Assembly: GCA_023382975.1 (NCBI GenBank)
Contig: JAHDXO010000007.1
Location: 106,142-170,141, forward strand
DNA length: 64,000 bases
Direction of reading: 5' to 3'
Source: Pirellulaceae bacterium
Lineage (GTDB): Bacteria > Planctomycetota > Planctomycetia > Pirellulales > Pirellulaceae
The position numbers and the translations under genes are program-made. The notes beneath the pieces were generated by a model, which was not told the origin of the DNA, did no database searches, and saw only the letters and a list, made by a program, of their open reading frames with translations. Below are positions 8,814 to 25,623 of the stretch, in pieces. How positions within the stretch are numbered: position 1 is the stretch's first letter; every line of letters starts with the position of its first letter.

Positions 8814-8842
8814 AGTATATGCAGTCGGCAGCCCGTTGTCGA
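8814..8842 (-). promoter_or_regulatory. Sigma-70-like promoter for the TraB/GumN gene
   Basis: On the minus strand TCGACA (8842-8837) and TATACT (8819-8814) are separated by exactly 17 bases, each matching five of six consensus positions. Transcription would begin near 8807, giving a leader of about 65 bases to the ATG at 8741. Confidence 0.55.
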
Positions 8843-8959
8843 TTTCCCTGCCAACGGGGAATTTTGGCGATTTTGGGCAATTCTGGAATAAATCGCTTGC
8901 AGGCGTAAGCCGCCGAAACATACTGACATTTGACGGCTGGCTTCGCCAGTCTCTCATTG

Positions 8960-8997
8960 GCCTCCCAGGTACCTGCCCCACCTGCGGAGGCTTTTTT
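8960..8997 (+). terminator. Orphan intrinsic terminator, plus strand
   Basis: Stem arms are GCCTCC and CAGGT on the left and ACCTG and GGAGGC on the right. They give six pairs, a one-base bulge, five more pairs and a nine-base loop, followed directly by TTTTTT. The opposite strand has no T-run after the stem, so it acts on plus-strand transcripts. No plus-strand gene lies between it and the divergent TraB promoter, which points to a small RNA or an attenuated leader of the barrel-protein gene. Confidence 0.6.
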
Positions 8998-9292
8998 CAT
9001 GGGTGCATTCGCCTCCACGTGCCGATCGAACCCGCTACTCCCCGTGGACTGGGTGCTTCGAACTGGCCGTCCCAAGAGGAACAAGCCAGATTTTCGGCAA
9101 GGCTTGCCTTTCTTATTCAACTTTTGCAACGAGCCGTTCCGATACTACCGTCACGCACGGAAAAATCCGCACGTCCACTACTCCGAACGATCGAGTTGAA
9201 GTCGGGGTCGGGCGCGTGGTGCAGGCAATTCGCGTGATGCGACGGAAAGGCCGCTGTTCTCTTCAGCGCAGAACCCAGAGGGTGGGACGACT

Positions 9293-10465: not shown

Positions 10466-10493
10466 GGGCGTGGAATCGACGGCCTCGCGCAGC

Positions 10494-10519
10494 ACGGGCG
10501 GAACCCTCCGCCCGTTTTT
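10494..10519 (+). terminator. Intrinsic terminator after the barrel-protein gene
   Basis: CGGGCGG (10495-10501) pairs perfectly with CCGCCCG (10508-10514) around a six-base loop, extended by an A-T pair and followed by TTTTT. It lies 30 bases after the stop of the barrel gene. The minus strand lacks a T-run, so it is one-directional. Confidence 0.85.
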
Positions 10520-10533
10520 CATGCGCTGCCGGA

Positions 10534-11448
10534 TCAGCGGTGAAGCCAGACGGCCAGCAGCATCGCCAGCGCCAAGACGCCAAACACGGGCATGGCTCGC
10601 CGACCGCGGACGCCCCAGTCGCTGTCGGCAGGCAACGCACGCGACAGGCCGAAGCCGGTCATCAGCGTCATCATCGCCGAGGAAATCATCAAGGTTGCGG
10701 CCCGGTCCAACCACGGCGATTCGCCCCCGATCCGATAGCCCATTGCATCGATCCGAGCCCAACCGACCGAGGTGGTGAACACCAGGCCCGCTGCCATGGC
10801 GGCATACTGCCAAACATGGTGCCAAGGCCCGTGCGTCTGCCAAGCCATCACGATCGAGGCTCCGACCAGCATCAGTGCTGCCACGCACCCCGTCGCGCGT
10901 CCCGCCATTCCGAACAACGCAATGCCCTGCCCCACGCCATCGAAACGAAAATCCAATGAAATCCAAGCGGCCAGGACGGCGGTCGCAACAATCAGCAGCA
11001 ACTGAGCCGGATCGAACCAACTCCGCGACCACCGACCGTCGCGGCCTGGCGGAGGCACCCAGCCCAGACGGCGTTCAACCCGAGGTACGGCCCAACCCAC
11101 CACGGCCGCTATCAACGCGAACCCGGCCAATTCACAACTGCCGCCCCACCAGAAAATCGCGGCGGGAGCAAGACCGCGTTCGATCCACCACCAACCGAGC
11201 ACCACCAGCCCGAACGCGTACAAGCCGCCTGCCGGCAAGAAGGCCGCTGCATTCCACACCCGAAGTACGACGGCCGTCCCGGTGACCGCCAGCGCGGCCC
11301 AGTGCCATGTCTGAAGCCGCAGCGGTGGAAGATTCTGGATGGCACGCAAGACGCCGGCCACGGCAACCGCGGCGAGCAAACCGGCCGCAACGGCGGTCGC
11401 CAGATCGGTCAGCCATCCGGAAAGCGGGCGATCATCGGTCCGCATCAT
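10534..11448 (-). CDS. Polytopic membrane protein of unknown function
   Basis: The 304-residue product is almost entirely hydrophobic helices, about eight by eye, separated by short polar loops. One loop of about 25 residues contains RVERRLGWVPPPGRDGRW. Aromatic-rich helix ends (GLVVLGWWWIE, WQTHGPWHHVWQY) are notable, and the HGPWHHVW segment could bind a metal or heme, but there is no definite motif. I do not recognise the family. The start is uncertain: ATG at 11448 is followed directly by a second ATG, and a GTG exists ten codons upstream at 11478. It lies downstream of the transglutaminase-elicitor-like gene on the same strand but behind that gene's terminator at 11508-11537, so it is probably transcribed separately. 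Confidence 0.65.
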   Translation of the reverse strand: MMRTDDRPLSGWLTDLATAVAAGLLAAVAVAGVLRAIQNLPPLRLQTWHWAALAVTGTAVVLRVWNAAAFLPAGGLYAFGLVVLGWWWIERGLAPAAIFWWGGSCELAGFALIAAVVGWAVPRVERRLGWVPPPGRDGRWSRSWFDPAQLLLIVATAVLAAWISLDFRFDGVGQGIALFGMAGRATGCVAALMLVGASIVMAWQTHGPWHHVWQYAAMAAGLVFTTSVGWARIDAMGYRIGGESPWLDRAATLMISSAMMTLMTGFGLSRALPADSDWGVRGRRAMPVFGVLALAMLLAVWLHR

Positions 11449-11507
11449 GGGCTCGTCACCCCGAGAAAGGGTTTTCACCGCTGGAGTCGGCTCGCAGCGA
11501 AATCAAC

Positions 11508-11537
11508 GAAAAAGCCGAAGCTCGATGGCTTCGGCTT
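11508..11537 (-). terminator. Intrinsic terminator after the transglutaminase-elicitor-like gene
   Basis: A perfect ten-pair stem (AAGCCGAAGC at 11512-11521 with GCTTCGGCTT at 11528-11537, loop of six bases) is followed on the minus strand by a short T-run formed by the stem end and TTT. It lies about 35 bases past the stop of the gene ending at 11573. Confidence 0.7.
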
Positions 11538-11572
11538 AATGCAAATCGAACTCTCATTGGCCGAAAGCGACG

Positions 11573-13042
11573 TCAAATGTCCCAGTCATGACCGCTTTCG
11601 ACTTCCGCTGCCGATTCACGCTCTTCCGGCATCGATTCGTCGTCCGCCGGAGCCGATTCCTCCTCGGCCGGGAAGAGGTCGTCCAACGTGAACGTATCGC
11701 CCTCGACGGCTTCCTCGCTCGCCTCTTCGTCCATCGGCAACACCACGATGCGCGGGCGGTTGGCGATAACGACCGGGGCCGACTCGGGAGCCGCGGTCAG
11801 ATCGTCCGACGGTTCGACCGGCGCGGGAGCCTCGGCCGGAGGCAAGTCGGAAATCACCAGCGGCCGGACGCCCGACCGGGGCACCCAGTCTTCGCGCACC
11901 GCAACCGGCGGCTGGGCATGATCGGGCTGCGGCTGAGGCTCGGTCTCCGGCGCGTCCGCGATGTGCGTCTCGACGTGACTGACCGTGTAGCCCACGGGAA
12001 CCATGACGTCGGGATCCGTCAGCGCCAATTGTCGGTCTTCGCGATAGGGATCGACGACCACCCATTTCTGGCGAAGTTCTTCGGGTACCGAGTCGCGCCA
12101 GATGGCCAGAACCTGCTGGACGTTCAAGTGCGGGTTGCCCGCTTCGTTTCCAGGCTGACGCCCCGCTTTGGGTTGAAGCGGCAGCCACAGCATATCGATT
12201 ACCGAACTGTCCGGATAGAAGCGACCGCCGACGATGTCGCCGTTGGCATTCAAATCCAACAAGTAGTGGAAGTATTTCACTCGGAAAATCTTCGGACTCT
12301 CGTTGTACTCGCCGTTGCTGTCCTTCAGATATCCCAAATTCAACTTCACTTCGACTTGGCGTGGTGAACGCCGGGCCGCATCCGAGTTATAAGCGTAAAT
12401 CGGGTAGTTCCACTTCTCCTCGCCCGGCTCCGATTCCATCGCCAAGCCGTGCCGACCTCGTCCCAACCAGTTCGTGAGCACCGCGTGGAAGACGCCCGCA
12501 TTGACCGTCGTCCCGGAACCGGAAAGATCCTCGATGTCGTTGTAGATGTACAGTTCCGCCAACATGCCCTTGATGTCCGAGGGAGTGAAGACAACCCCGT
12601 TGCGGACCACGTTCTGCTGAGGTTCCGCGTGGCGGATCGCAGCGGACGCCCATCCGTTGCAGTGCCCCGACCAATCCGGCACGGCCATCCGCGACCCCCA
12701 GCGCATCCCGAGCGGACCACGAATGTCCACCTTCCCTTTGTACGCCTTGACGTCCCATTCCTCGAACGACGTTGCCAGAGTGCGGCCCTGGTGAAAGGCT
12801 CGGTCGTATTTCCGCATGATCGAGATCGTGCCACCGCTATTGTCAGGGTAGATGTATCCTGAATACGGCACCTGATGTCCGGGGACCGCGCCCTTTGCGG
12901 GCAGATCTTCGAACTTCCACGAGAAATCGGTACCCCAATAACGCTGGTAGACTTGCTCTTGTTGACGAATATCGTTCTGCGGAATCGTCGCACCGAGGTG
13001 TGTTGTGGCGATTAACATCGCCAGCGCAACCGAGGTTCCCAT
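11573..13042 (-). CDS. Transglutaminase-elicitor-like secreted protein (paralogue 1)
   Basis: The 489-residue protein begins with a hydrophobic signal-like segment. It contains a cysteine motif SGHCNGWASAA (Cys128), a histidine in NAGVFHAVLTNWLG (His186) and EKWNYPIY (Trp211-Asn212). These match, in order and spacing, the Cys/His pattern I associate with the transglutaminase elicitor family (CxGWA, HxxLxNxxG, WNxP). After about residue 330 the sequence becomes a Pro/Ala/Glu/Asp-rich, probably disordered tail. ATG at 13042 is preferred over upstream codons because the hydrophobic segment starts there and CGGAG lies a few bases upstream. A close paralogue is at 43983-45191. A protein cross-linking or peptidase-like role at the cell surface is inference. 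Confidence 0.7.
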   Translation of the reverse strand: MGTSVALAMLIATTHLGATIPQNDIRQQEQVYQRYWGTDFSWKFEDLPAKGAVPGHQVPYSGYIYPDNSGGTISIMRKYDRAFHQGRTLATSFEEWDVKAYKGKVDIRGPLGMRWGSRMAVPDWSGHCNGWASAAIRHAEPQQNVVRNGVVFTPSDIKGMLAELYIYNDIEDLSGSGTTVNAGVFHAVLTNWLGRGRHGLAMESEPGEEKWNYPIYAYNSDAARRSPRQVEVKLNLGYLKDSNGEYNESPKIFRVKYFHYLLDLNANGDIVGGRFYPDSSVIDMLWLPLQPKAGRQPGNEAGNPHLNVQQVLAIWRDSVPEELRQKWVVVDPYREDRQLALTDPDVMVPVGYTVSHVETHIADAPETEPQPQPDHAQPPVAVREDWVPRSGVRPLVISDLPPAEAPAPVEPSDDLTAAPESAPVVIANRPRIVVLPMDEEASEEAVEGDTFTLDDLFPAEEESAPADDESMPEERESAAEVESGHDWDI

Positions 13043-13581
13043 GATCTGCTCCGGGGGGTAAAACAATGGTAACGGGGGGCAATTACGGCATGCTATCGGG
13101 CAGTGGATCAGGTGCTGATCGCACGGGGAAAGAGCGGCGCAGGTGCGCGCACTCTTTACCCCATATTCTTCGGCAAACGGTCAATACGACCGTGATCGAT
13201 TCGCTGGAAAGCCATCTGTTGAGCGAGCCGACGAACGGTGGCGCAGCCTATGTCGAGGATGCAGGAAAGGCTAGATTTGGGGAGACGCGATGGAGGTAAG
13301 CTGGTATTTTTAGGTGATTTCCTACGGATCAACGTGGCAGTCGACGCAAAAAGTCAGCGCAGTCGCTACAGATTCCAACGCTCGATTCGCGCAGCAACGA
13401 TGTGACGCATTGTCGGCATGCCACCAAGCCTTCAACGCGAGATTCTGCGGCAGGATGTGATCGAGGCAAATCACTCTTGGTTGGAGCGCTAGGGAACAGA
13501 GCCGCGTACTGAGGGGCCTAGACGCTGAGTCAGGAACTCCATCCTGATTGATTCACGTTGGCATTTCATCAGCCTCAGCCT
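13043..13581. other. Intergenic region at the edge of the defence island
   Basis: The 539 bases between the transglutaminase-like gene and the end of the Hsp70-like gene hold no convincing intact gene. The only meaningful content seen is the short remnant at 13322-13474 on the minus strand. A 77-codon frame on the plus strand at 13066-13299 shows no recognisable features. Confidence 0.5.
13322..13474 (-). pseudogene. Possible DHILPQ-motif (DUF1524/HNH-like) gene remnant
   Basis: A minus-strand frame open from about 13550 to the TAG at 13322 has no ATG and only a GTG (13474) as possible start. Its translation contains VICLDHILPQNLALKAWW and later TFCVDCHVDP before the stop. DHILPQN resembles the EHILPQ motif of DUF1524 nucleases (as in GmrSD systems), and CxxCH could be the end of an HNH-type zinc knuckle. 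It is too short to be a working nuclease and lacks a ribosome site. I treat it as a decayed fragment at the edge of the defence island, but chance similarity is possible. Confidence 0.3.
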
Positions 13582-16173
13582 TCAGGAGCTTGGTCCATCA
13601 TCGGCGGTTGCGAGCAAGATCGAACCCATCCCTCGCCGGTCGATGTAATCGATCATCTGCTGCAGCGCTTGCGGCACATCCACCGCCCCGCCGATCACGT
13701 GAAACCGACCGCTTCGATGCGCTTTGATTGCCCGCCGAAAAGTATCCTTGATGCGACCGGCCAGTTCGCTGTCCGGAGCAAGGAACCCGTTGTCGTGGGC
13801 GCGCCGTCGCAGCATGAACACGATGACCAAGGCAGCGTATCGGAAAATGTACGCGCCGCTTCCGTGGTTCAGTTGGTCGTTCAACTGTTTCAGGCAAATC
13901 TCCATGATAGCGAGGCAATGTTCCGAAGCGATCTCCTTGGTCGCATCGGAACGATAGCAGAGTGTCGCCGAAAGCGCCTTCAACCAATTCAATCGATTGC
14001 CAATGCGTTGTCTCGAGAAAGCACGCGAGAACCGGTCAGCTAGAATCGCAACGTGAATGGGCTTTCGGAAGCACTGGCCACACGCAATTAAAGCGTCTCC
14101 GGCGTCGCCGTGGGAGAGCTGGTGGGCCAGCCAATCCGCGAACTCTGCATGATTGGTGGACGTGTACCCGAGGCAACGGGTAATTCGGACCTTCAATTGC
14201 GCAGCGGATCGACGATGTTGATCTGCAAGCACGGCGACAAACTGATCAAGGACAGTCTGATGGTGCGATACTGTCCCCTCGGAGGAAACCGCGGTTGCGT
14301 CGCGCGGGTAGGCTGTAGGATCCTTCTGTTTCAGACGCTCGATGATTCGGTTCAAGTACGCATCGCGTCTGAGTTGATTTGGCGCGAGGAATCCCTCGAT
14401 TTCGCGCAGAACCGCTCTCCATCTGGCAGGACTGTGCAGCCGCGGCAGCAGTTCCGGGTAGATTCGGGGCTGGCGATTGATGTACTCTTCGCGATTCACG
14501 GACTGACCAGCTTCGTCCAGAACGGGGCGCATTCGTTTCCAATCCACCAGAATGCGGCTGGTCCCGAAAAGATTCGGTCGCTCGGGCTGAACTTCCAGGC
14601 GAGCGTTTCCGTGGGCTGGCGTCATTGAAACGTGAAGTCGGGCGGGTTCTTCTCGATCGCAGGACCGAGGCAATTGAACGTTGAGTTCGCGGACGCCGGG
14701 ATGCTCCTCGTGGTACACGGCGAAGATCAGTTGAGGTTCGCTTCGCGGGATGGCGAGATCCGAAACGGGTTCGGGACGGGTCCAGACGCGGCCGCCCGGC
14801 ACGTAGGCGTGACTCTTCTCCAGCAGATCTTCCCAGATCATTTCCCCATCGCGCCGAATCAGCAGTTGCAGTCGCGGCAGCGTGTCCAGGTAGGTTGGCA
14901 GGCCTGCCGCAAGCCGAGCCGAGAACAGGGCCGCTCCACGTGCAAGGAGTGTTCGCCCGTTGGTGGATCCGCTCAGCAAGATTCGTTCCTTCGGCAAATC
15001 GAGGGAGCTTACTAAGGTGCTGCTCAGGCAGAGACCAGTCTCGATTGCGACCGATGCCATTTCGCCTGTGACAACGGCTCCGATGATCCGCTCGCCGATC
15101 GTGCGAGTTCGCCCTTTGAACCAACTTGACATTTCACCAGCACCACTTTGCACAAACGAGCATCGTCCGAGCAATTCCACCCTGTCACAACTGACCTTCG
15201 CGTGACGTGACGATGACAGAGGCGTCGCGCGAACTCGCGTGCCGCTTGGCAGCTTGATCCACTCGACAGCCGGTTGGTGCCCGTTCTCGTACTCCGCCAG
15301 TCTGGCGCTTGCCCAGTTGCTGGCAAACAGAATCTGCCAGAGTTGTCCGTCGTCCAGCGGCAGTCCAGCGTCGGCAAGAACCGTCAGAGCTTGGCTCTTG
15401 AGGAACGCCCAGCCGGAACTCGCGAAACTGTCCTTATCCGGATCGGGGCGGCGACGAGCCGGAAGAAACCAGCGTTGCTTCCCGTGTTCCGCAAGCACCA
15501 CATCCAACAGGGCCGTTTCCACCTGAGCCAGTCCAAGGTGAAGACATACCAACCGACCGACAACGCTGCCGGGGCCGATCTTTCGACGGCGGCCTAGTTC
15601 TCTAAGAAAGTCGTGGTTCTGCTCACACCACACCATCGCTGAGGCAACCGGCCTCCAAAGCAGTTGGAGCGAGATTCCGGCTTGGCTTGCTTCATCCAAT
15701 AGCGCCTGCTGCTCTGACTCGCGAGTTGTGTTAGGGATTACCAACGTTGGCTTACCATCCGACGTCAGACGCGGGTGCAGACGAAGAACATCAGCGACGG
15801 CCACCGAGATTGCGTGCGAAGGAGCGATTTCGAGAACGCGATCGTCTGGTCGCCAAGTCCACGTTTGTCCGCTCGGCAAACTCGCCCAGGCAGCCGCCAA
15901 TGGAAAACGGCCAATCCCGGCTTTGATGTCCGCACGCGCCTCCGGCGGCCAACAGCAGCCCGTTCCGCGTGGATGCAGTGGAATTGCACAATCCAAGCGA
16001 GGTGGCTCGCCTGGAACTCGTGGCATGATGACACTCGGAGGGGCATGGTAATCGGTGGAAGCCACTAAGGAACGCGACTCACAATCCGCGGTGCAGCGAA
16101 CCCCTGTGAAGCCGAGTTCGTCGAAAACCAACGCGGTACCGGTAGTGTCCATCGCGTTCATCGTGCTCATCAT
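13582..16173 (-). CDS. Derived Hsp70-like protein of a CoCoNuT/McrBC-like defence operon
   Basis: The 863-residue product is the last gene of the defence operon. It overlaps the DUF2357 gene by an ATGA junction (MMSTMNAMD start). The N-terminal half keeps Hsp70/actin-fold landmarks in order. TLVIPNTTRESEQQALLDEA continues into an aGi-x-Lq segment and SAMVW, matching the VitvPa.f...qR...dA...aGl...EptAAal strand-helix. RLVCLHLGLAQVETALLDV stands where GGGTFDV sits. RILLSGSTNGRTLLARGAA stands where vlLvGGsTrip sits. The glycine-rich nucleotide loops are heavily altered (FDELGFTGV for DLGTT), so ATP binding is uncertain. The C-terminal third is helical and not recognised. Hsp70 homologues are known partners of CoCoNuT systems, where RNA or ribosome binding is proposed. 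Confidence 0.7.
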   Translation of the reverse strand: MMSTMNAMDTTGTALVFDELGFTGVRCTADCESRSLVASTDYHAPPSVIMPRVPGEPPRLDCAIPLHPRGTGCCWPPEARADIKAGIGRFPLAAAWASLPSGQTWTWRPDDRVLEIAPSHAISVAVADVLRLHPRLTSDGKPTLVIPNTTRESEQQALLDEASQAGISLQLLWRPVASAMVWCEQNHDFLRELGRRRKIGPGSVVGRLVCLHLGLAQVETALLDVVLAEHGKQRWFLPARRRPDPDKDSFASSGWAFLKSQALTVLADAGLPLDDGQLWQILFASNWASARLAEYENGHQPAVEWIKLPSGTRVRATPLSSSRHAKVSCDRVELLGRCSFVQSGAGEMSSWFKGRTRTIGERIIGAVVTGEMASVAIETGLCLSSTLVSSLDLPKERILLSGSTNGRTLLARGAALFSARLAAGLPTYLDTLPRLQLLIRRDGEMIWEDLLEKSHAYVPGGRVWTRPEPVSDLAIPRSEPQLIFAVYHEEHPGVRELNVQLPRSCDREEPARLHVSMTPAHGNARLEVQPERPNLFGTSRILVDWKRMRPVLDEAGQSVNREEYINRQPRIYPELLPRLHSPARWRAVLREIEGFLAPNQLRRDAYLNRIIERLKQKDPTAYPRDATAVSSEGTVSHHQTVLDQFVAVLADQHRRSAAQLKVRITRCLGYTSTNHAEFADWLAHQLSHGDAGDALIACGQCFRKPIHVAILADRFSRAFSRQRIGNRLNWLKALSATLCYRSDATKEIASEHCLAIMEICLKQLNDQLNHGSGAYIFRYAALVIVFMLRRRAHDNGFLAPDSELAGRIKDTFRRAIKAHRSGRFHVIGGAVDVPQALQQMIDYIDRRGMGSILLATADDGPSS

Positions 16174-17906
16174 GGGCAGTCCAGCAAAGCAAGAACTAGC
16201 TTTTCCAACGACACTTGGGCAGTCCACAAATTCAGGGGAAGATTGGCAGTGAAAACGGCCGAGTCTACACCGTTGACTCGCATTACGGATTGTTGGGTCG
16301 GGTCGTCGTGACCGACAAGGATGCATCCGCTCACAGGGACTTGGCAATCCAGACCGTGCAAAGTCTCCGACAGAGATTCGCCAAGGCGTCTTAACTGATC
16401 CGCGGGGTTCGCAACGCTGGTCAGCGTCCAAAACCCGATAATTCTCGTCGAATTTGAATGCGAATCGGGACTTCGGACCCCCAGCATGAAGTCCGGACAC
16501 AACGAGTTGATCTGAGAATTTCGGCCCAAATAGTCGCCCGTGGCGAAATCCGGAACAAGTTGAACGACGGCTTTGCGATTCTGCGTCTCGAACCACCAAT
16601 CGCCGGGGATGGTCCGCGTATCCATAAATCGGCCGGCCATGTGCTCGTCTCGGAAGTAGCACTCGCCACGACTGGCAGGCGAACGTTGGCATACCTGCTG
16701 TAGGGCCGAAACGACGCCGATCCAGCACATTTCCGCCCAAGTTCGTTCGCGCCAGCGCCACAGCGAATCTTCCTGTCTTTCACGACGAAGCAAGTGCTTA
16801 TAGGCAGTCCAAATGCGATGGTAGTTCGGATCGTACTGTAGAACGTAGTTTGGTTGAGGTACGACGGTCAGCGGATGGACGCCACCAATTGGAGAATCCT
16901 GTAACAACCGACGACACTGCGCGACAAACCGGCGCACAAGCAGAAGGCGTTCATGGCCGGAGAAACGCTGATTATCCAACACGTAACGACGTCCAGCCCC
17001 GATGCAGCGGACCAGAACGTCCCTGACGACGCGGTTTTCCAGGGTATTGGCATCCTCGAAGCGACGAACGCTCTGCAACTGCTGCTTATGTCCCGCCTTC
17101 TCGACCAGTGTGCGCCCCGGTTGTTGGGATATCCAGCGAAGGCAGGCGGTATCAATTTCCTGAATCTGCGCGACCGGGGTAGCGACTCGTTCGCGGCGCA
17201 GCACACGACGCGGCTTGCCGCAGATCGCCTCTAGAAGTGGGGGCAAACGTCTGGCAAGTTTCACAACGAGGGCCATCGGCGGTGCGTCAACGGTCGCGAT
17301 TCGTCGCCAGCGCGCGGTCAGTCGGCTGACGCTGCAGGCAGCGACATCTCGAAGTCTCCCTTCCCATGCCCGCGTGGACGGTCTTAGTTCATCGTAGACT
17401 TGGTTGATGAACTCCAAATACTGGCCCAGGGCGCTTTGGATTGCTCGTCCAGAATCCAGGACGGCGTTCGGCCAATCCAGCTTTGCTGCTTCGTCGCTGA
17501 ACAGAGAGTCGCCTGCTCGGATCAACTCGCGAAGCAACGGAAGATCCGCCGGAACCTGAGCCAGCAACGCGGCAGATTCTCCTTCGAGCCCCAGCCACAA
17601 GTGGATGTCCTCCCGTTCCGAATCCGGTGTCGCTCGGCAAGCGCTGGGAAGTTCGTATCGAGCAATACGACGTTCATCCGATCGCGCCCAACTTCCAATG
17701 CAAGGCAAATCGGAGCCCGTTACGTCCGCAACGATCTGCAATACATGATCGTCAACGTCGATGCAAAATCGCGAAAACAGTCGCAATTGATCAGCCGTCG
17801 CCAGTTTCTGCGACCAGCGAAAAGCAACAACTCTGAGATCTACATGAGCCGCGTCTGAAATCATAGCGTGTATATTTCCCGCGATCGGCGATAACAGACC
17901 CTTCAT
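16170..17906 (-). CDS. DUF2357/McrC-like subunit of the defence operon
   Basis: The 578-residue product follows the McrB-like gene after 17 bases. Its centre carries the family stretch FEDANTLENRVVRDVL, where ENR is a strong DUF2357 mark, followed by NYVLQYDPNYHRIWTAYKHL and a helical segment leading into a C-terminal PD-(D/E)xK-like region. There CPDFML supplies the expected aspartate. The following strand reads RIIGFWTLTS where active enzymes have D/E-x-K, so the nuclease looks inactive. A long N-terminal domain of about 250 residues is not recognised. ATG 17906 is chosen; a TTG three codons upstream and an ATG at 17864 are alternatives. In McrBC systems McrC stimulates the McrB motor and carries the nuclease. 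Here it may keep only the structural role. Confidence 0.75.
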   Translation of the reverse strand: MKGLLSPIAGNIHAMISDAAHVDLRVVAFRWSQKLATADQLRLFSRFCIDVDDHVLQIVADVTGSDLPCIGSWARSDERRIARYELPSACRATPDSEREDIHLWLGLEGESAALLAQVPADLPLLRELIRAGDSLFSDEAAKLDWPNAVLDSGRAIQSALGQYLEFINQVYDELRPSTRAWEGRLRDVAACSVSRLTARWRRIATVDAPPMALVVKLARRLPPLLEAICGKPRRVLRRERVATPVAQIQEIDTACLRWISQQPGRTLVEKAGHKQQLQSVRRFEDANTLENRVVRDVLVRCIGAGRRYVLDNQRFSGHERLLLVRRFVAQCRRLLQDSPIGGVHPLTVVPQPNYVLQYDPNYHRIWTAYKHLLRRERQEDSLWRWRERTWAEMCWIGVVSALQQVCQRSPASRGECYFRDEHMAGRFMDTRTIPGDWWFETQNRKAVVQLVPDFATGDYLGRNSQINSLCPDFMLGVRSPDSHSNSTRIIGFWTLTSVANPADQLRRLGESLSETLHGLDCQVPVSGCILVGHDDPTQQSVMRVNGVDSAVFTANLPLNLWTAQVSLEKLVLALLDCP

Positions 17907-17923
17907 CGGTCCCAAGCGGCGAG

Positions 17924-20236
17924 TCAGGCTTGGCCGCGGGATTCATCGTCAAAATCGCGTTGGACACCCTGCCACAGGAACTGATGCTCCACTTTCGACT
18001 TGTGCATCGCTTGGCGAAGCGGTTCGTCCTCCAGTTCCGCTACCACACTTTCCACCTTGCCGAGGGCAGATCGGATTTCTGGTTCCGACGGGTCCAGCCC
18101 TCGGAATTTTGGCAAAAGCTTCTGCTCGATCTGGTCGGACATTGCCCAGTTCAGCCACGGTTCCCCTTCAATCCGCGGAAAATTGGCCACGTAAGCCTCG
18201 ATCGCGCGACCCACGCGGTATGCAAACGGCCGTCGGATCATTTTCATGGCCTCGTTCAGTCCTTGAATCCACCCATGCACTCGAGTGCGCGTATCCTCGT
18301 CTAAAGATGAAGCATCCCGCTGCCAACTGCGCCAAGCGTCGTAGGCCAGCCGGCGACCACCCTTTGTGTTGCCATTCGACGAAGGTTCCCTCGAACCCGA
18401 GTTGACCATCACCTTCTTGGGCGGCCCAAAGCGAAGCACGTTCGCCCGGTCAACCACTTTGTCGGACAACGATTGGGTCGTCTCGTCCTCGTTCATCGTT
18501 CCCGTGAACAGGACATTCTGCCCCACGAACAGATGCATCACTGAACCACCCTTTCCACTCCGCCCAACCTCCAGCGGGATCTCCGCCTTGCCGCGATCTG
18601 CCACATTCGACAAGTCGACTCCACGACGCATTTCCAGGCGGCTGAGAAACTCGCTAAAATAGTACTCGACGCGAGCGAGGTTCATCTCGTCAAGCAAGAC
18701 CATCAACACCTGATCACTTCGCGAATTCTCGCCCCACCCGCGGGGCGGATTCCAGCCTCGGTCCGGCTCGTCGAAATACTGGTCCATCTGGATCAAGGCA
18801 CGTCCCAACTCAGTGGCGCGATATCGCCCTTCGAGGTAGTTGAAGAAGCCGAACATGTCCTGGGGACTGTCCCACCGAGGTTGCACGGCGATGTTCAAGA
18901 AATGCATCCCCATCGCTTTGGCGTAGCGACGTGGCAATTCGCTCTTTCCGGTGCCACTGATCCCCGCCAGCACCACCAAGGGAGAGATGTCGTTCACTTT
19001 CAAAGCAGTGTGAAACGCGTACAGGATTCTGGGGTGAAAGCGAAATCCACTCTCTTCCAGGTGATCTTGGAGCTTCCTCAACTGTGACGATTCGTCGACC
19101 TTTCGCATCAATTCCCGATCGTGACTGGGAAGCACGGGTTGCCACAAGTCGCCTGTACGTTCTTCGTCCGCGACATGACCGACCCGGGTCATCATTTTTT
19201 CCCAATCATCCCGCAACAGCGGCAATCGATGGTCAAGTTCCTCTCGTTCTGCGCGCAACCCGGACAGCTTCGCTTCCGCCTGTTCCCGTTGATGTTTGAG
19301 TTCATCCAGGCGGTCCTGTTCAAGTCGAAGTTCGTCCTTCATGCTGTCGCGGTTCTGTCGCAATTCTGCCAGGTCGCGGTTGTAGTCGTTCAGTTTCTTG
19401 CGAGCTTGTTGATCGAGCGATTCCACCTGTTGCTGAAGCTCCCGCTTCTGCTTTTCCAGGTTGTCAACGTCTTTCTGAAGCTGGTGAAGACGTTCTTTGG
19501 CCGACTCCGCCTGTTGAACTTGGCTTTCAAGGTCGCGAAGTCGTCCTTGGAGTTGTTGGGCTTGGAATTCGCTGCGCAGAATCGCCTGATCGAGATCGAG
19601 TTTCTTTCGGTTCAATTCCGCAAAATCGGCTTGGAGTGTTTTCAGTTCCTGGCTGGCCCTCTCCAGTTCCGCAAGTTTGCTGTCCGCCTGCCCTTGTAGC
19701 TCGCGATTCTGCTTTTCCAAAACATCGATTTCCTTCTGCAAGTGTTGGAGACGCTCTTTAGCTGCCTCCGCCTGTTGAACTTGGCTTGCAAGGTCGCGTT
19801 GCCGCGCCTCGAGTTGTTGAACTTGAAGTTCGCTGCGCAGAATCGCCTGCTCCAGATCGAGTTTCTTCTGATTCAAGTCCGCATAGTCGGCTTGGAGTCT
19901 TTCGAGCTCTTGGCGGACTTTCTGCAGGTCGGCAAACTCCGCGTCGCGTTGCCGCAACTCGTTTTGGAGATCGTCCAGACGCTGTTGAGCCCGATCCCGT
20001 TCGTCGAGAATTTGCTGTGCTTCGAAGACGGCGTCGCGAAGGCGATCGAATTCCTGTTGCATTTCAGCGATGCGGTGTTGAAGGAATTCGTACTTCGTGG
20101 CTTCGGGAAGCCGTTGTTCTCGCTCCCAAAGCGACAATGCTTGCCGCCGACAAGCGCCGAACACCAGCGCGCAGAAAAAGACGCTCAAGATCGTCGCGAC
20201 ACTACCGAGGACCACGAAGAAGATCGTTGAAGTCAT
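17924..20236 (-). CDS. Membrane-anchored coiled-coil McrB-type AAA+ motor
   Basis: This 770-residue protein has three parts. Residues 2-27 form a transmembrane helix (IFFVVLGSVATILSVFF). Residues 37-347 form one long coiled coil. Residues 385-770 form an McrB-type AAA+ domain with Walker A GISGTGKSE (about 425-433), Walker B VLLDEMNLAR (about 513-522) and the family's GTMNEDE loop (about 579-585), in place of the usual GTMNxxDRS. McrB motors hydrolyse GTP and drive McrC. The coiled coil contains an 87-residue tandem repeat (19376-19897). ATG 20236 is chosen so the helix is N-terminal; a TTG at 20260 overlaps the stop of the upstream gene and could be the coupled start. The DUF2357 gene follows after 17 bases. 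Confidence 0.85.
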   Translation of the reverse strand: MTSTIFFVVLGSVATILSVFFCALVFGACRRQALSLWEREQRLPEATKYEFLQHRIAEMQQEFDRLRDAVFEAQQILDERDRAQQRLDDLQNELRQRDAEFADLQKVRQELERLQADYADLNQKKLDLEQAILRSELQVQQLEARQRDLASQVQQAEAAKERLQHLQKEIDVLEKQNRELQGQADSKLAELERASQELKTLQADFAELNRKKLDLDQAILRSEFQAQQLQGRLRDLESQVQQAESAKERLHQLQKDVDNLEKQKRELQQQVESLDQQARKKLNDYNRDLAELRQNRDSMKDELRLEQDRLDELKHQREQAEAKLSGLRAEREELDHRLPLLRDDWEKMMTRVGHVADEERTGDLWQPVLPSHDRELMRKVDESSQLRKLQDHLEESGFRFHPRILYAFHTALKVNDISPLVVLAGISGTGKSELPRRYAKAMGMHFLNIAVQPRWDSPQDMFGFFNYLEGRYRATELGRALIQMDQYFDEPDRGWNPPRGWGENSRSDQVLMVLLDEMNLARVEYYFSEFLSRLEMRRGVDLSNVADRGKAEIPLEVGRSGKGGSVMHLFVGQNVLFTGTMNEDETTQSLSDKVVDRANVLRFGPPKKVMVNSGSREPSSNGNTKGGRRLAYDAWRSWQRDASSLDEDTRTRVHGWIQGLNEAMKMIRRPFAYRVGRAIEAYVANFPRIEGEPWLNWAMSDQIEQKLLPKFRGLDPSEPEIRSALGKVESVVAELEDEPLRQAMHKSKVEHQFLWQGVQRDFDDESRGQA
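19376..19897 (-). repeat. 261-base tandem duplication inside the McrB-like gene
   Basis: Two adjacent 87-codon units, 19897-19637 and 19636-19376, encode near-identical coiled-coil segments. The first has LQADYADLNQKKLDLEQAIL and the second LQADFAELNRKKLDLDQAIL. Both continue with RSE-x-Q-x-QQL, a SQVQQAE-x-AKER block and LEKQ-x-REL. The DNA is also clearly alike. Similarity fades near the end of the second unit. Confidence 0.85.
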
Positions 20237-20256
20237 GGGGAAGCTGCTCTGTTGGC

Positions 20257-21720
20257 TCAAGGCATGGTGGATGTCGGTTCAGTGCCCATCGAATCGTCCG
20301 ATGAATTAGGTTGTCCGGATGATTCGGTCGCGTCGCCCGATGTGGGCTTTCTTGGTGGGTCTTCAGGCCGTTCTGTCATCTGGGGTACCGCCTCGCTGCG
20401 ACGACGAAGTTCGTCCAGCAAGATCCCAAGTCGCTTCTGCAGCGATGCCTCGTCGCTCCTTGCCGATTCGATGTCGCCGTTCAGTCTGGTCAACTCCGAT
20501 TTTTTCTGTTGTACATCCGACTCCAGTGTTCGCTGCTCATCACTCAGTTGCTTGATCGTCTGATCGAGCGACAAGTTCTGCTGGCGGGCGTCGGCCACCT
20601 GCCTTTCCACGGCTAGAACCTGTCCCTCCAAATCCGCAACTTGCGTTCTGAGACTGGCAATCTGCGTTTGCGATTGGGTTTTCTGGAGTATGAACGTTTC
20701 GATCGAAGCACTCAGGGCGGTTTCCTGACTCTTTAGCTCCAGAAGTTTTTGCCGTAGAATGGTCTCTTCATCCCGCAAATCTGCGATGGTCTGCTGGGCT
20801 GATTTAACTTCCCCCGATACCTCCGTCGATTTCACTTCAAGATCTGCGATTCGTTTCGTGAGTGCTGCCTCATCTTCTTTCAGTCGACGCAGCTCCTCCT
20901 GAACGTTGTCGATCTGCTGCCCAAGGCTTGCTAATTGCTCCTTCTCTGCCTTCGCCGCCACCAATTCTTCTAGCACTGTCTTGAGTTCGTCACGATTCGT
21001 GCGAAGTTGAGTATCCAGACTTGCTCGTTCGTCCTGCGCGGTCTTGATCTGCTCTCTTTGCTGTTCCAACATCGTCTTGTTAACCGCCACGCTCGTCGAA
21101 AGCGCGGTGACTTCTGCCTCGAGCCCTGGTTTTGCGCCGTCCAATTTTGCCTTTTCGTTGTCCAGCCTTGCCAATTCCGTCTTCAAAGACGTTGCCTTCT
21201 CCTCAAAGGCTTTGAGCTCCTCGGAAGCCTTCGCGACCTTGCTCAGCAGTTGGTAGTACTCTTTCACTTTCTCCGCGATGTTGCGACTGACCCCTTCCAG
21301 TTTTCTTTCCTCGGCCGTCAGTTCTTTCAGCACTGCGTCATGTTGGCGCCTTATTTCAACAAGCTCGCCTTCAACCTTGGCTTTGTCAGTTTGTAGGCCA
21401 CCCATTTGTGCATTTAGACCGTCAACCTGGCCATTCAACCGCTCAGCTTCCTTCTTCAGTGCGGTGACCCTGACCTCGGCCTCGATTAACTCGTTGTTTG
21501 CGACTACTAACGTGAAAATGGAGTTTCCTTGCGCCGCCAGCGCCGTCACTGCGACGAGAGACGCAATCACCATCCACCAAATGCCGGGCAATCCGGAAAT
21601 CGAACGCTTGGTGCGGGTGTCCGGTACGCTAGGAGCAGAGGGTGTTGCGGGATCCCTATATTCCGAAAAGATCTGAATTTCGGGGGCATCAAATCTGTCT
21701 GCGTCGGTGTAGTTGGGCAT
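20257..21720 (-). CDS. Membrane-anchored coiled-coil protein of the defence operon
   Basis: The 487-residue product has an N-terminal cytoplasmic segment of about 45 residues, one transmembrane helix (GIWWMVIASLVAVTALAA, about 47-64), an unbroken coiled coil to about residue 435, and a disordered Pro/Ser/Thr-rich tail ending in TEPTSTMP. No enzymatic motif is seen. The start at 21720 has GGGCGGAG eight bases upstream and lies about 58 bases after a near-consensus promoter (21786-21812). The stop is next to or overlaps the start of the McrB-like gene, which is itself a transmembrane coiled-coil protein. The two probably assemble together through their coiled coils at the membrane. I do not recognise a named family. 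Confidence 0.75.
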   Translation of the reverse strand: MPNYTDADRFDAPEIQIFSEYRDPATPSAPSVPDTRTKRSISGLPGIWWMVIASLVAVTALAAQGNSIFTLVVANNELIEAEVRVTALKKEAERLNGQVDGLNAQMGGLQTDKAKVEGELVEIRRQHDAVLKELTAEERKLEGVSRNIAEKVKEYYQLLSKVAKASEELKAFEEKATSLKTELARLDNEKAKLDGAKPGLEAEVTALSTSVAVNKTMLEQQREQIKTAQDERASLDTQLRTNRDELKTVLEELVAAKAEKEQLASLGQQIDNVQEELRRLKEDEAALTKRIADLEVKSTEVSGEVKSAQQTIADLRDEETILRQKLLELKSQETALSASIETFILQKTQSQTQIASLRTQVADLEGQVLAVERQVADARQQNLSLDQTIKQLSDEQRTLESDVQQKKSELTRLNGDIESARSDEASLQKRLGILLDELRRRSEAVPQMTERPEDPPRKPTSGDATESSGQPNSSDDSMGTEPTSTMP

Positions 21721-22032
21721 TTGATTGTCTCCGCCCCTCGACCGGGTGTCAGTCCCGTCATTGGTTCGAATTACTCTGAATATGTAGTATACTCGGTGCG
21801 GGGGGATGTCAACGATTTTCGCCGAAGCTGGTGGGACACGAACGCCAAAACCAGGGCAAGTAGCAACCATTCTGGAAATTGATTTATGAACAAAAAAGGT
21901 ACATTACTGGACTTTGCGGAACGGATACGCTGGGAGATCAGCTAGATACGTACTCGCTATCGGGGGCTCCGTCTCAGCCCGCACAGTCAGACGACCAAGG
22001 TACTCGGACGCCGTCACGCGTCCTCGCCACGT
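21721..22032. other. Spacer between the helicase gene and the four-gene defence operon
   Basis: These 312 bases are visibly richer in A+T than the surroundings in parts (TTGATTTATGAACAAAAAAGG near 21878-21898). They hold a promoter at 21786-21812. No open frame with a ribosome site was found. The long leader and separate promoter suggest the helicase is at least partly expressed apart from the downstream genes. Confidence 0.5.
21786..21812 (-). promoter_or_regulatory. Near-consensus promoter of the defence operon
   Basis: On the minus strand a perfect TTGACA (21812-21807) and TATACT (21791-21786) are separated by 15 bases that include a CCCCCC run. The short spacer may make it weak or dependent on an activator. 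Transcription would begin near 21779, about 58 bases before the coiled-coil gene's ATG. Confidence 0.5.
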
Positions 22033-25000
22033 CTACGTTACGTTCCAACGGCGCCGAATACGTTCGACGCAGCCGGCCAGATCCTCTCGAAGTTGATATA
22101 CCCAGAATCGTTGAACCGTCCAGCCGTTGGCCACTAGCAAGAGGTCTCGCTCGAGGTCTTCCCGTTTGCGAGACCCGTCCCAGTTCTTGTGGTAGGTCTC
22201 GCCGTCGACCTCGACGTTAAGTTTCAACCCCGGTTTCAGCAACGCGAAATCGAGGAACTTTCCGCATGCCGGATACTGTTGGGTAAAAGGTATCCCAGCT
22301 TGCACAAGCGCCTCGGCCAAGCGTGGCTCCCAGACAGGTCCGATCAAGTCTTCCCGAAGTGGGGACGCGGCACCAGGTTCGTCCTTGCAGCTCTTGGCCA
22401 GCCGTCGAATGTGTTCGGCCGGGCAATTCTTGGCCCACTCAAGATCCCCGAAGACATGCAGCAGATGCATGGCGCGGCTGACCGCGACGTTAAATCGATT
22501 CGGCGTTTGGGCCAGGAACCTTGCAGAACCGGCGGGCATGTCCGGCCCGCCTACCAAACTGAAGAGGACGACATGCCGCTCGTCCCCCTGAAACCCATCG
22601 GCTGTATCAACCAGCATACGCCAGTTGTCCAGCAGCGACTGGTCAAAGTGTTCCCACACCGCATCCCGAATGCGATTCGCCTGCTGCCGGAACGGAGTGA
22701 CTACTCCCACCGTTCCGGCAAAATGCTTGTCCCGAAGCCGCACCAATTCGGCAAGGACGGCGTCGATCTGACGTCGACTGATTGCGCCCCCTCCGGCAAT
22801 GCCCTCGGCATCTGCAGGGACGTCGGTCCATCGCAGGCCGCTCTGTCCCGTGCCCAATCCGCCCGCGTTTGTCATGACAACGAGCGTCTCCCGATAAAAG
22901 GCCGAGTTGCAGTATTCGGCGATTCGTGGATGACAGCGATGGTGTTGCCTCAATTGGATCGGCCGAGACAAATGTTCCGCGGCGGCGGCCAGATGAAAGG
23001 CCGATGTTGTGCGGTAGCTGTAGCGTTCAAGCTTGGGCTCCAGTAGCTTGAACTGACGTCGCAATTGCGTGTCCAGGGCTCCGGAGATCCGCGTCACGTG
23101 CGACAACTGCATCGGATCCCCGACAAACATTGCCCGGCGGCACCGGAACAGCAGAGGTACGACGGAGGCAATGTCGCACTGGCTGGACTCGTCGATGATC
23201 AGCAGATCGATACTACCCGCCTTCCAGGGCAAGTGTCGGCCAGCGGAAAGGTTCGTTGTTGCCAGCAATGGAACATGATTCAACAGAATCGGAAAGGAAC
23301 GCTGCAGGAGACGGTCGAGATTCCGCTCGGCTAGATCCCCGCCGAGGGCCTGGTAGTTCTGGATGCCGGCCCACAGATCAACGAGTTCTTGCCGTTCTTC
23401 AGGTGTCAATTCAGCGCCCCAAGCGTCGGCCACGCCCCGAAGGCATTCACGTGACGCAGCAACATCAATCGCAAGCACGCCCGCATAACGGGCGTAAACC
23501 ACATCGAGACTTTCGCTTCGTCCAATTCGCTCGCGCAACTCCGCGACCTTGCGAACGGCCTCGATGGCTTGGGCGACGCGGAGCCAATGCCTGAGCCGAA
23601 ATCGCAGCAAGTCTGGCTGCTTGGTGTCCGCGTTTGGCAAGGAAACTGAAGTGGCGGTATCCGTACCGAATTGGGCCGTGAAGGCGTCATCGATCTGCCG
23701 GGCGCGTCGCACGCACGCGCGAAGAGCCATCAGCCGACGGAAGAATCCGACGAACCACTTCCACGAAAACGCAGCGGGTGGTAGCGGCCCCAACGTCTTC
23801 AGCAGCCCGCCGATCTCCATGCTGCAGGCGGCGTCTTGAACCAACGCAAGTTGATCGATCATGTCGGTTGGCAGCGTGACGCGAGCGTCGCTGACCGCAT
23901 ATTCGGCCTCGGCAAGCGATGCGTGCAACTCTTGGGTCTCGCGGACCTGTTGTTGGATTTCCGCAAGGCGGGCGACGATTTGTGCGCAACGTCCTCGAAG
24001 CTGGTCCCGGAGCACGAGCGCCCGCTCGTGGACCGGTTTGCTCAAAATGTCCGTGAGCGCTTGGGGCAGGCTGGCATCCACTTGTTGTCCAAAGGGTCGC
24101 GCCAGTCGAAGGATGATCTGTGACGGTTCGACGGTAGCGTTTAGCCGGGGAACCACTGCCTCCAATGCCTGATGATTTCGGCTGGCGAAAAGAGCCGAGC
24201 GGCCTGCAATTGCAGCCTGAGCTAGGACGGCAGACACGACGCGCGACTTGCCCGTTCCGGGCGGTCCTACGATCACACTCAGTAGTTCACTGGCAGATGA
24301 CTGGCAGGCTTTCAGTTGCTCGTCGTTGAGAGCCTCGACCATTGCCAAATGCACCAGGGATTCCAACTGGCAGCTAAGATCGTCGGCGGCATCCTCCGGC
24401 ATTGCGGGCGCTTCCCCGTGTTGTAGTCGCTCGACGCGGGAGGCCCCGCGAGGATGCAGGTTGAGGACCGACGGCTTGCATGCGGCGTGAGGGAAAACGT
24501 GCGCCAGCGCGCTATGATCCAATTCGTCATCCGTCACCTGCCAAGCCAATTTGAGCAACTCGTCGTGCAATCGTGCCGTGTAACGCCACTTTCCGGGAAC
24601 AAACAGGGCGGCTCGATTGTAGATGCCGTCGTTTTGCAGATGTGACATGGAGGGCGAAGACCGCAGCCGGCGAATGTCCAAAACATCTGCGCACCACTTG
24701 GCGTAGTAGTGGCTCAACAAGTCACAGAACGGGGCGAAACTGCGGTAGTGCGGTTCGGACGAGGCGAAGTCCGATTCTTCGATATCGAAGCCGCAAAGTT
24801 CCAGGAATACCCGTCGATCTTCGCTGTTTTTCAGGCGGCGTTCGAGCCATCCGTCATTGATCCGGACTTGCCCCAATGCTCGCAGGTGGAGCGACGTTCG
24901 GTCGATTTCAAAAGCGACCGGCGCCAGAAAGACTGGCGACACAAACACCGTCTCCTGCCCCGTGCTGCTATCCTTCCAGCGGTAGCGATTCAAAGGAGCG

Positions 25001-25623
25001 CCGAGATACAGGTGAGTCCCCTGCTTGGCATGTTTGATAAATTCCGACCAGCCGCTGGGAATCTGGAGCATCATCTGCGGCGGTTCGTCGCTTTCCGGCC
25101 ACGCCAGATTGCCCGCCAAGCAGACGAACTTCCAATTCTCTTGGTCTGCCTTGCCGTGCAAAGTCGTTCCCTGATCCAGACGCACGCACTCCGCGTAGTA
25201 CTGGCACAGCCTGCGAAACACGGACCAGCGAGAACTGACCATCGACAACCTTGGAGGTTGTCGAGCACTTTCCGGAGTCGCTGCCCCTGCGAGCCGTGTC
25301 GATGAATCGCGGCTCTGAATTCCGGGCGTGCGAGAATGATTGGACGGGCCCGAGAGATCGGTCGGTGTGGCTCGCCCGCCGGACAGTCCCACTGATACGT
25401 CGAGTTCTTTTGGTCGTGAGGTTGTTTGGAGCCGCCATCGACGTCGGTGGCACGTTACAATTCCTTCTTGCTGGAGATTCAGCAGGCACCTGTGGACCAA
25501 CGGCACTGGCAGTCGCGTTGACTGGGCGATGTCGCGAGTCGCCAGTGCCACGGTGGCACGGCTGAGCCGCTCCACAATCGTCGTCCTTGCCTGAGCATCT
25601 TCGTCGTTGTTGCGAGGGTTCAT
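22033..25623 (-). CDS. UPF1-like SF1 helicase with C-terminal DUF559-type nuclease domain
   Basis: The 1196-residue protein begins with a winged-helix-like region (about 15-65, TRLPVPLVHRCLLNLQQEGI) and an unrecognised domain to about 440. The SF1 helicase follows: Walker A GPPGTGKS (453-460), a long helical insertion, motif II DESSQ (811-815), GDPMQL (835-840), the HHRCHPRI segment (894-901), motif V ADGFQGDE (1008-1015) and motif VI NRFNVAVSRA (1042-1051). This AAA_11/AAA_12 set is that of the UPF1/Dna2 group. Residues 1095-1196 form a DUF559/MTES_1575 (Vsr-like) nuclease fold with FLDF and VEVDGETYH. ATG 25623 is chosen; in-frame ATGs at 25857 and 25917 precede it but encode low-complexity sequence, and no clear ribosome site marks any. 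It lies just upstream of the McrBC-like operon. Confidence 0.85.
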   Translation of the reverse strand: MNPRNNDEDAQARTTIVERLSRATVALATRDIAQSTRLPVPLVHRCLLNLQQEGIVTCHRRRWRLQTTSRPKELDVSVGLSGGRATPTDLSGPSNHSRTPGIQSRDSSTRLAGAATPESARQPPRLSMVSSRWSVFRRLCQYYAECVRLDQGTTLHGKADQENWKFVCLAGNLAWPESDEPPQMMLQIPSGWSEFIKHAKQGTHLYLGAPLNRYRWKDSSTGQETVFVSPVFLAPVAFEIDRTSLHLRALGQVRINDGWLERRLKNSEDRRVFLELCGFDIEESDFASSEPHYRSFAPFCDLLSHYYAKWCADVLDIRRLRSSPSMSHLQNDGIYNRAALFVPGKWRYTARLHDELLKLAWQVTDDELDHSALAHVFPHAACKPSVLNLHPRGASRVERLQHGEAPAMPEDAADDLSCQLESLVHLAMVEALNDEQLKACQSSASELLSVIVGPPGTGKSRVVSAVLAQAAIAGRSALFASRNHQALEAVVPRLNATVEPSQIILRLARPFGQQVDASLPQALTDILSKPVHERALVLRDQLRGRCAQIVARLAEIQQQVRETQELHASLAEAEYAVSDARVTLPTDMIDQLALVQDAACSMEIGGLLKTLGPLPPAAFSWKWFVGFFRRLMALRACVRRARQIDDAFTAQFGTDTATSVSLPNADTKQPDLLRFRLRHWLRVAQAIEAVRKVAELRERIGRSESLDVVYARYAGVLAIDVAASRECLRGVADAWGAELTPEERQELVDLWAGIQNYQALGGDLAERNLDRLLQRSFPILLNHVPLLATTNLSAGRHLPWKAGSIDLLIIDESSQCDIASVVPLLFRCRRAMFVGDPMQLSHVTRISGALDTQLRRQFKLLEPKLERYSYRTTSAFHLAAAAEHLSRPIQLRQHHRCHPRIAEYCNSAFYRETLVVMTNAGGLGTGQSGLRWTDVPADAEGIAGGGAISRRQIDAVLAELVRLRDKHFAGTVGVVTPFRQQANRIRDAVWEHFDQSLLDNWRMLVDTADGFQGDERHVVLFSLVGGPDMPAGSARFLAQTPNRFNVAVSRAMHLLHVFGDLEWAKNCPAEHIRRLAKSCKDEPGAASPLREDLIGPVWEPRLAEALVQAGIPFTQQYPACGKFLDFALLKPGLKLNVEVDGETYHKNWDGSRKREDLERDLLLVANGWTVQRFWVYQLREDLAGCVERIRRRWNVT

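Follow-up and report, generated by a model that had tools for sequence, protein, structure and literature searches.

A predicted type III-B CoCoNuT operon of a Pirellulaceae bacterium and a conserved hydrophobic segment on its coiled-coil proteins

Introduction

Coiled-coil nuclease tandem (CoCoNuT) systems of Types I to III were defined by computation in 2024 (PMC11090510). According to the main text of that study, subtype III-B is characterized by a CnuH helicase with an N-terminal winged helix-turn-helix, an OB-fold and a fused Vsr-like nuclease, by a separate CnuA which is a coiled coil without any other recognisable domain, by a separate CnuD, by a CnuC with a beta-sandwich and an inactivated nuclease fold and by the absence of TerY-P genes. 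The same text states that no McrB GTPase of the NxD type has been characterized so far. In this study an operon from a Pirellulaceae bacterium (phylum Planctomycetota; assembly GCA_023382975.1, 10.46 Mb in 139 contigs) was analysed, which occupies positions 13582-25623 on the minus strand of a stretch of 64,000 nucleotides (nt) from contig JAHDXO010000007.1 (forward-strand positions 106,142 to 170,141), hereafter called the window. It comprises five consecutive uninterrupted frames, named after the published CoCoNuT scheme and transcribed in the order cnuH, cnuA, cnuB, cnuC and cnuD.

The operon is a new instance of this known, computationally described class. With high confidence it is read here as a III-B CoCoNuT operon with a predicted antiviral role, in which an McrBC complex, driven by GTP and likely tethered to the membrane, together with an Hsp70-like protein would recognise foreign or translation-linked RNA and pass it to a helicase-nuclease for cleavage. 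In addition, evidence is presented for a conserved tether signal on the III-B proteins CnuA and CnuB, which is unexpected from the published description.

Results and discussion

Gene content and subtype

CnuH contains AAA_11 and AAA_12 helicase domains (Pfam) and, at the level of sequence, matches SEN1, SMUBP-2 and UPF1, whose structures are known. Its Walker A motif (GPPGTGKS) lies at residue 453 and its Walker B motif at residue 810, and the distance between the two amounts to 337-357 residues in those CnuH sequences (15 of 22) where both motifs were found. In UPF1, the corresponding distance is about 140 residues. CnuH thus appears to have the large insertion after Walker A that is a feature of III-B. 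Its C-terminal part (residues 1100-1191) matches MTES_1575 (38.8 bits, cut-off 38.2) and DUF559 (31.9 bits, cut-off 20.6), both of which were matched by 19 of 19 CnuH sequences at an E-value threshold of 0.01, and these Pfam matches suggest the fused Vsr-like PD-(D/E)xK nuclease of III-B. This nuclease looks active, since its residues D1125, E1138, D1140 and H1145 do not vary among 22 of 22 CnuH sequences, a set that includes incomplete ones.

CnuB exhibits a Walker A (GISGTGKS), a Walker B (VLLDEMN) and an NxD motif (GTMNEDET). The latter was found in 35 of 36 sequences of the CnuB type, a set that also contains the comparators and outgroups, and the remaining one (L020) ends before the motif. 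The power of the 3.5-residue periodicity reaches 4.06 in CnuA and 4.83 in CnuB, compared to 1.66 in CnuC as a control, and the two proteins include stretches of 247 and 294 residues without proline, respectively. Two further features of III-B, an NxD McrB-type GTPase fused to a long coiled coil and a separate coiled-coil CnuA, can hence be recognised by sequence. The PADLOC candidate model PDC-M26A, which is unnamed, matches CnuB with an E-value of 2.8e-39 and may represent a CoCoNuT-type GTPase. A relative of CnuB from Rubripirellula lacrimiformis (P0217; 58% identity over the GTPase) is annotated as chromosome partition protein Smc.

The structure of CnuC was modelled from P0067, which is identical to residues 18-581 of the CnuC of the window, and that of CnuD from P0001, which differs from the CnuD of the window at residues 20 and 817. 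Both predictions (predicted local distance difference test scores of 92.7 for CnuC and 90.2 for CnuD) support the McrC and Hsp70 assignments. The CnuC model consists of an N-terminal beta-sandwich, a DUF2357 helical core and a C-terminal alpha/beta fold of the nuclease type. A catalytic DxK motif was not found in this fold. These features are consistent with the III-B CnuC with its immunoglobulin-like N-terminal domain, DUF2357 and inactivated nuclease fold. In the CnuD model an Hsp70-like nucleotide-binding domain (residues ~9-426) is followed by a substrate-binding domain up to residues ~545-570, which was seen in 5 of 50 structure-match rows, and by an all-helical C-terminal region. As regards the HEAT-like repeats of a III-B CnuD, the model shows only that residues 561-844 are helical throughout. 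At the position of the SEP glutamate in the aligned Hsp70 chains CnuD has an arginine. The genes cnuC and cnuD are separate and overlap by ATGA, which differs from the CnuC-CnuD fusion of III-A, and a separate Hsp70-like CnuD, as predicted from the model, agrees with III-B.

An earlier reading of the window from its sequence only had described a UPF1-like helicase with a C-terminal nuclease, coiled-coil proteins, an McrB motor, a DUF2357/McrC-like protein and a derived Hsp70. These descriptions are borne out by the UPF1/SEN1 matches and the conserved nuclease motif, by the periodicity of CnuA and CnuB, by the GTPase motifs of CnuB and by the predicted McrC and Hsp70 folds, respectively. Its assignment to the CoCoNuT class by gene content is supported as well, and the subtype, which it had left unassigned, fits III-B.

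In a tree of the GTPases (LG+G4, 1000 ultrafast bootstraps, rooted on L072) the GTPase of the window forms a cluster (support 78) with 22 loci and three rhizobial systems, with the III-C system of Synechocystis next to this cluster and three III-A systems next to both. The labels of L069 and L070 ('Type II?') and of L071 ('Type I-B?') are guesses, and these sequences were used only as outgroups. Gene content and tree together point to subtype III-B. With regard to the placement expected by the sequence-only reading, within the coiled-coil branch of McrB, this tree, which contains no CoCoPALM sequences, shows only that the window falls with rhizobial III-B systems and that III-C and III-A fall outside.

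These CoCoPALMs are described in PMC11090510 as fusions of a transmembrane and coiled-coil region to NxD McrB GTPases, and CnuB of the window has such a layout. It is nevertheless very improbable that the operon is a CoCoPALM-like system, in which an McrB GTPase with an FtsB-like transmembrane/coiled-coil region is linked to pilus assembly, instead of a CoCoNuT. A UPF1-like helicase-nuclease and a separate Hsp70 are present and recurrent, the signal-peptidase family (a CoCoPALM partner) is absent from the ten flanking frames by a Pfam scan of those frames, and the GTPase clusters, in a tree without CoCoPALM references, with rhizobial III-B-type systems next to III-C and III-A. Within the family to which the window belongs, locus L046 groups with two III-A plasmid systems in the GTPase tree (support 100) and encodes a DUF2357 protein of 1115 amino acids (aa). 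It was therefore assigned to III-A, and III-A and III-B both occur in one family.

Hydrophobic N-termini of CnuA and CnuB

A segment was counted if the hydropathy over 19 residues reached at least 1.6 within the first 140 residues. The count dropped the CnuB of L016, L020 and L034, which are incomplete, and of the comparator L046, while L063 was not in the set. As frames were read from stop to stop, a segment could precede the true start. Such a segment was found in 23 of 23 CnuA proteins (22 of 22 in the main count, plus L044 at 1.96) and in 21 of 23 CnuB proteins, of which the other two were just below the threshold (1.57 and 1.48). Among the remaining proteins it occurred in 0 of 29 CnuC, 1 of 30 CnuD and 1 of 22 CnuH. 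Shuffling of the same residues, which served as a control, attained the observed value in no more than 5% of the trials for 21 of 22 CnuA and 22 of 23 CnuB proteins and for none of the CnuC, CnuD and CnuH proteins. In L017 the best CnuA segment seems to lie before the true start, and a second segment (1.65) is located further in. The segment is also present on rhizobial CnuA and CnuB and on the CnuB of Synechocystis, which belongs to locus L065 (pSYSX, 7377-16529) and starts with a hydrophobic segment that is possibly a hairpin.

CnuA and CnuB are likely anchored in the membrane by their hydrophobic N-termini. In 21 CnuB proteins 80 lysine and arginine residues fall within the 15 residues after the segment, compared to 28 within up to 15 residues before it, with several N-terminal tails being shorter than 15 residues. 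As the lysine/arginine cluster follows the segment, the coiled coil and the GTPase probably lie on the cytoplasmic side. Two observations limit this reading. The charges flanking the CnuA segment (62 lysine and arginine residues before and 56 after; 42 acidic residues before and 71 after) do not settle the orientation of this protein, although they lean towards an inner N-terminus. Hydropathy by itself can mislead, as it also flags stretches inside rhizobial CnuH helicases that are unlikely to be membrane spans.

That the segments are instead buried helices which join CnuA and CnuB in a cytosolic complex is an unlikely alternative. It draws on the fact that the prediction was made by hydropathy alone, on polar residues within some segments and on the ambiguous charges of CnuA. 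In a wider set of CnuB relatives (the best 120 of 6049 matches, sharing 54-95% identity across the GTPase, with 109 taken as full length) five full-length proteins do not have a segment at all. Yet 101 of these 109 have it within their first 30 residues (three more are just below the threshold), its hydropathy rises to 3.33, an arginine/lysine cluster stands right after the CnuB segment and three III-A-type CnuBs do not carry any segment. The hydrophobic N-termini seem to set III-B and III-C apart from III-A. Where membranes or transmembrane segments are named in the main text of PMC11090510 and in its preprint (12 of 21 places), such helices are attributed to the related CoCoPALMs or to other associated proteins, and none are reported on CoCoNuT core proteins.

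Relatives and distribution

The relatives comprise 28 loci, of which 21 are on titled contigs and seven are stretches from other genomes; with L046 set aside as comparator, 27 were compared. CnuD is present in all 27 by construction, as it was the query that brought in the loci, except for L045. CnuA was found in 20 of 20 loci with a readable region before CnuB and CnuH in 19 of the 27 (split over two frames in L028). In six loci (L016, L020, L022, L024, L032 and L034) the contig ends before the place of CnuH, and 19 of the 21 loci with readable flanks contain it. The titled loci belong, by organism title, to Planctomycetota (7, including the anammox genus Jettenia, which we take to be a member), to Desulfo-genera, Mailhella or 'Deltaproteobacteria' (12), to a 'Proteobacteria bacterium' (1) and to an archaeal metagenome-assembled genome (1), and the five best matches are all from Planctomycetota.

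On plasmid p2 of Rhizobium leguminosarum the order H-A-B-C-D is annotated under other names and preceded by a Shedu gene. The same order is found on pRtrCIAT899b of R. tropici, where CnuH is short (732 aa) and adjoins an IS21 element, and as frames in unannotated sequence of Sinorhizobium meliloti GR4. The rhizobial CnuD is distant (24% over 415 residues, E 1.8e-8). The arrangement therefore recurs in Planctomycetota, metagenome-assembled genomes of Desulfo-genera and Rhizobiaceae, which provides the conserved neighbourhood that the earlier reading had called for.

Of 294 genomes of the phylum, with the own genome counted, nine have CnuD (one of them by a weak and frame-broken match), and of 60 close relatives, again with the own genome counted, four contain CnuC and three contain CnuB. 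None of the three other genomes of the same genus, which are partly incomplete, contains CnuB. Such a patchy spread is usual for defence genes. Searches of plasmid and phage collections with CnuD yielded no match, and an alignment search of viral contigs with CnuD yielded 56 pattern matches, none of which is a relative. A plasmid search with CnuC yielded 21 records, five of which were examined (two Rhizobium, one Sinorhizobium, one Synechocystis and one Phytobacter), and one with the CnuB GTPase yielded 266, six of which were examined among the best 60.

The operon might also serve membrane-associated quality control of RNA or protein, i.e., a stress response, and not antiviral defence. UPF1-like helicases and Hsp70 serve quality control elsewhere (UPF1 in nonsense-mediated decay) and a stress role is proposed for a related type (both in passages of PMC11090510). 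The patchy spread described above, the annotated Shedu gene adjoining one relative and the type I restriction genes that, by eye, adjoin others render this improbable and are in favour of a defence operon.

Several points weigh against the III-B assignment and the defence role. The winged helix of CnuH (residues 16-57) matches HTH_IclR with 20.0 bits (E 5.8e-4), below the Pfam cut-off of 22, and such a domain is rare among the 19 CnuH sequences (HTH_IclR in two, MarR_2 in two, z-alpha in one). Support in the GTPase tree is modest (78 for III-B without III-C, 70 for III-B plus III-C and 69 with III-A added), and the subtype labels of the references were assigned in this analysis from gene content. 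The structural match of CnuC to McrC is weak (TM-score 0.21 by query and 0.33 by target, with a large root mean square deviation). None of the ten flanking frames matches a recognised defence family in Pfam, with four of them lacking any family. Experiments on CoCoNuT Types I-III were not found in the passages of the literature that were covered. Finally, L015 and L017, whose CnuB proteins are the closest to that of the window in the tree (57% over the GTPase), have no CnuH beside their A-B-C-D genes despite a readable flank, and in L042 CnuH lies downstream of CnuD. CnuH may therefore be exchangeable, with the A-B-C-D genes being able to work with other partners.

In L015 and L017 a convergent gene with a similar C-terminal sequence in both, by eye an SNF2-type helicase, is located downstream of CnuD and is perhaps an alternative partner. 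In L017 the A-B-C-D genes are adjoined by an SNF2-helicase-like gene and (by eye) by type I restriction genes.

Operon layout and genome context

The five genes are listed in Table 1. With the TTG starts cnuB overlaps cnuA by 4 nt and cnuC follows cnuB after a gap of 8 nt, while the ATG starts, where P0184 and P0067 begin, result in gaps of 20 and 59 nt; the true start codons of both genes are uncertain. The spacing between cnuH and cnuA is 312 nt, and cnuH may have its own promoter.

Table 1. Genes of the operon with their positions in the window.
Gene	Position	Strand	Product
cnuH	22033..25623	-	1196 aa; superfamily 1 (SF1) helicase, UPF1/SEN1-like, with a C-terminal PD-(D/E)xK-type nuclease
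cnuA	20257..21720	-	487 aa; N-terminus with a single hydrophobic, transmembrane-like segment, followed by ~400 residues of coiled-coil (3.5-residue) periodicity
cnuB	17924..20260	-	778 aa (TTG 20260) or 770 aa (ATG 20236); transmembrane-like N-terminus, ~340-residue coiled coil, McrB-type GTPase
cnuC	16170..17915	-	581 aa (TTG 17915) or 564 aa (ATG 17864); beta-sandwich, DUF2357 helical core, nuclease-type fold
cnuD	13582..16173	-	863 aa; Hsp70-like nucleotide-binding domain, less firm substrate-binding domain, all-helical C-terminal region

The content of guanine and cytosine is 0.575 in the operon and 0.612 and 0.619 in its flanks, the lowest 12-kb tile in the window having 0.573, and the lower value of the operon is only suggestive of a recent acquisition. 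No TerY-P genes were found among the ten flanking frames in the Pfam scan. In the three genomes of the same genus an empty site could not be demonstrated, with relatives of the operon flanks being present but on different contigs. Two contigs from this genus with the closest relative of a flanking transglutaminase gene do not match the other flank of the operon, and one of them instead matches the surroundings of the second transglutaminase copy of the window. This transglutaminase-elicitor-type protein (PF16683, E 1.6e-22) is encoded at 11573-13066 (-) and its second copy at about 43971-45191 (+), and the three same-genus genomes contain 6, 4 and 3 matches of this type. The family is named after oomycete elicitors.

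Possible mechanism and target

By analogy with E. coli McrBC, CnuB would assemble into a ring driven by GTP and activated by CnuC. CnuA and CnuB, and perhaps also the helicase, would be joined at the inner membrane through the coiled coils, with the N-terminal segments as putative anchors. CnuC, with its nuclease fold lacking DxK, and CnuD would bind the target rather than cut it, and CnuH, presumably the only active nuclease, would unwind and cut it. Defence function and RNA targeting of the operon are predictions.

The target may be RNA, as the authors of PMC11090510 predict, or DNA, as the sole intact-looking nuclease is of a fold which they call generally DNA-specific. That the Vsr/DUF559-like nuclease of CnuH is a DNase, which due to its membrane position meets incoming phage DNA, has considerable, though not prevailing, probability. 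PMC11090510 calls PD-(D/E)xK enzymes generally DNA-specific where it discusses them, and no HEPN RNase family was found among the Pfam matches listed for the five operon proteins. On the other side, the authors of PMC11090510 read the UPF1-like helicase and Hsp70 in its main text as RNA-binding parts and say that all nucleases concerned can degrade RNA, which for the present operon would be an extension of their statement.

A more far-reaching idea, which we consider as likely to hold as to fail, is that III-B (and, judging from CnuB, also III-C) represents a membrane-bound branch of McrBC systems. Two coiled-coil proteins, each with a single span, would keep the GTPase ring, a pseudo-ATPase Hsp70 and the helicase-nuclease at the inner membrane, the site of entry and first transcription of phage genomes. 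According to the boldest version of this idea, the coiled coil of CnuA would face outward and sense the envelope side of an infection, which would trigger the destruction of nucleic acid inside.

The operon and its relatives show III-B in genomes of Planctomycetota and Desulfo-genera, while the main text of PMC11090510 places it chiefly in Alphaproteobacteria. The conserved hydrophobic N-termini provide a concrete, testable location for the complex. As relatives occur in the cultivable Sinorhizobium meliloti GR4, Rhizobium leguminosarum, Synechocystis PCC 6803 (III-C) and Rubripirellula lacrimiformis (in which only CnuB was seen), membrane action and RNA targeting are directly testable.

Comparison with known systems

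Zorya (ZorA/ZorB) is a defence complex with an anchor in the inner membrane, from which a long extension reaches into the cytoplasm. Its proteins are unrelated to those of the window, and the likeness is one of analogy only. E. coli McrBC shares the McrC fold and the McrB-type GTPase with the operon, and its McrC nuclease is active. Unlike the window, it has an NxxD motif (according to the main text of PMC11090510) and does not include any helicase or Hsp70.

Type IV CoCoNuTs, i.e., Druantia Types I and II (as described in parts of PMC12458937), also have a coiled-coil CnuB homologue and a helicase with a Vsr-type C-terminal domain. Unlike in the window, this helicase is of the YprA family (superfamily 2), and both CnuB and the Vsr domain are inactivated. 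The III-A systems on Phytobacter and Caballeronia plasmids, labelled here from gene content, share the UPF1-like helicase, the coiled-coil GTPase and DUF2357. They differ by DUF2357 proteins of 1348 and 1104 aa (the CnuCD fusion in the main text of PMC11090510), by separate CnuE-type and kinase genes and by a CnuB without a transmembrane-like segment. The III-C system on pSYSX of Synechocystis PCC 6803, also labelled here from gene content, shares an NxD coiled-coil GTPase with a hydrophobic N-terminus and a DUF2357 protein; unlike the window, it has a phospholipase D family protein as a separate gene and another gene order, and CnuD was not identified there.

The closest agreement is with III-B (Bell et al. 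2024, PMC11090510), for which Rhizobium leguminosarum OyaliB p2, R. tropici CIAT 899 and Sinorhizobium meliloti GR4 served as examples by layout. As far as its main text describes III-B, the order H-A-B-C-D, the CnuH helicase with its fused Vsr/DUF559-like nuclease, a separate CnuA, a coiled-coil NxD CnuB, a DUF2357 CnuC with a beta-sandwich and a degenerate nuclease and a separate Hsp70 CnuD are all shared with the window. Unlike the published III-B systems, which are primarily from Alphaproteobacteria, the window belongs to a member of the Planctomycetota, and its CnuA and CnuB carry transmembrane-like segments which do not feature in that main text and which the rhizobial systems also have.

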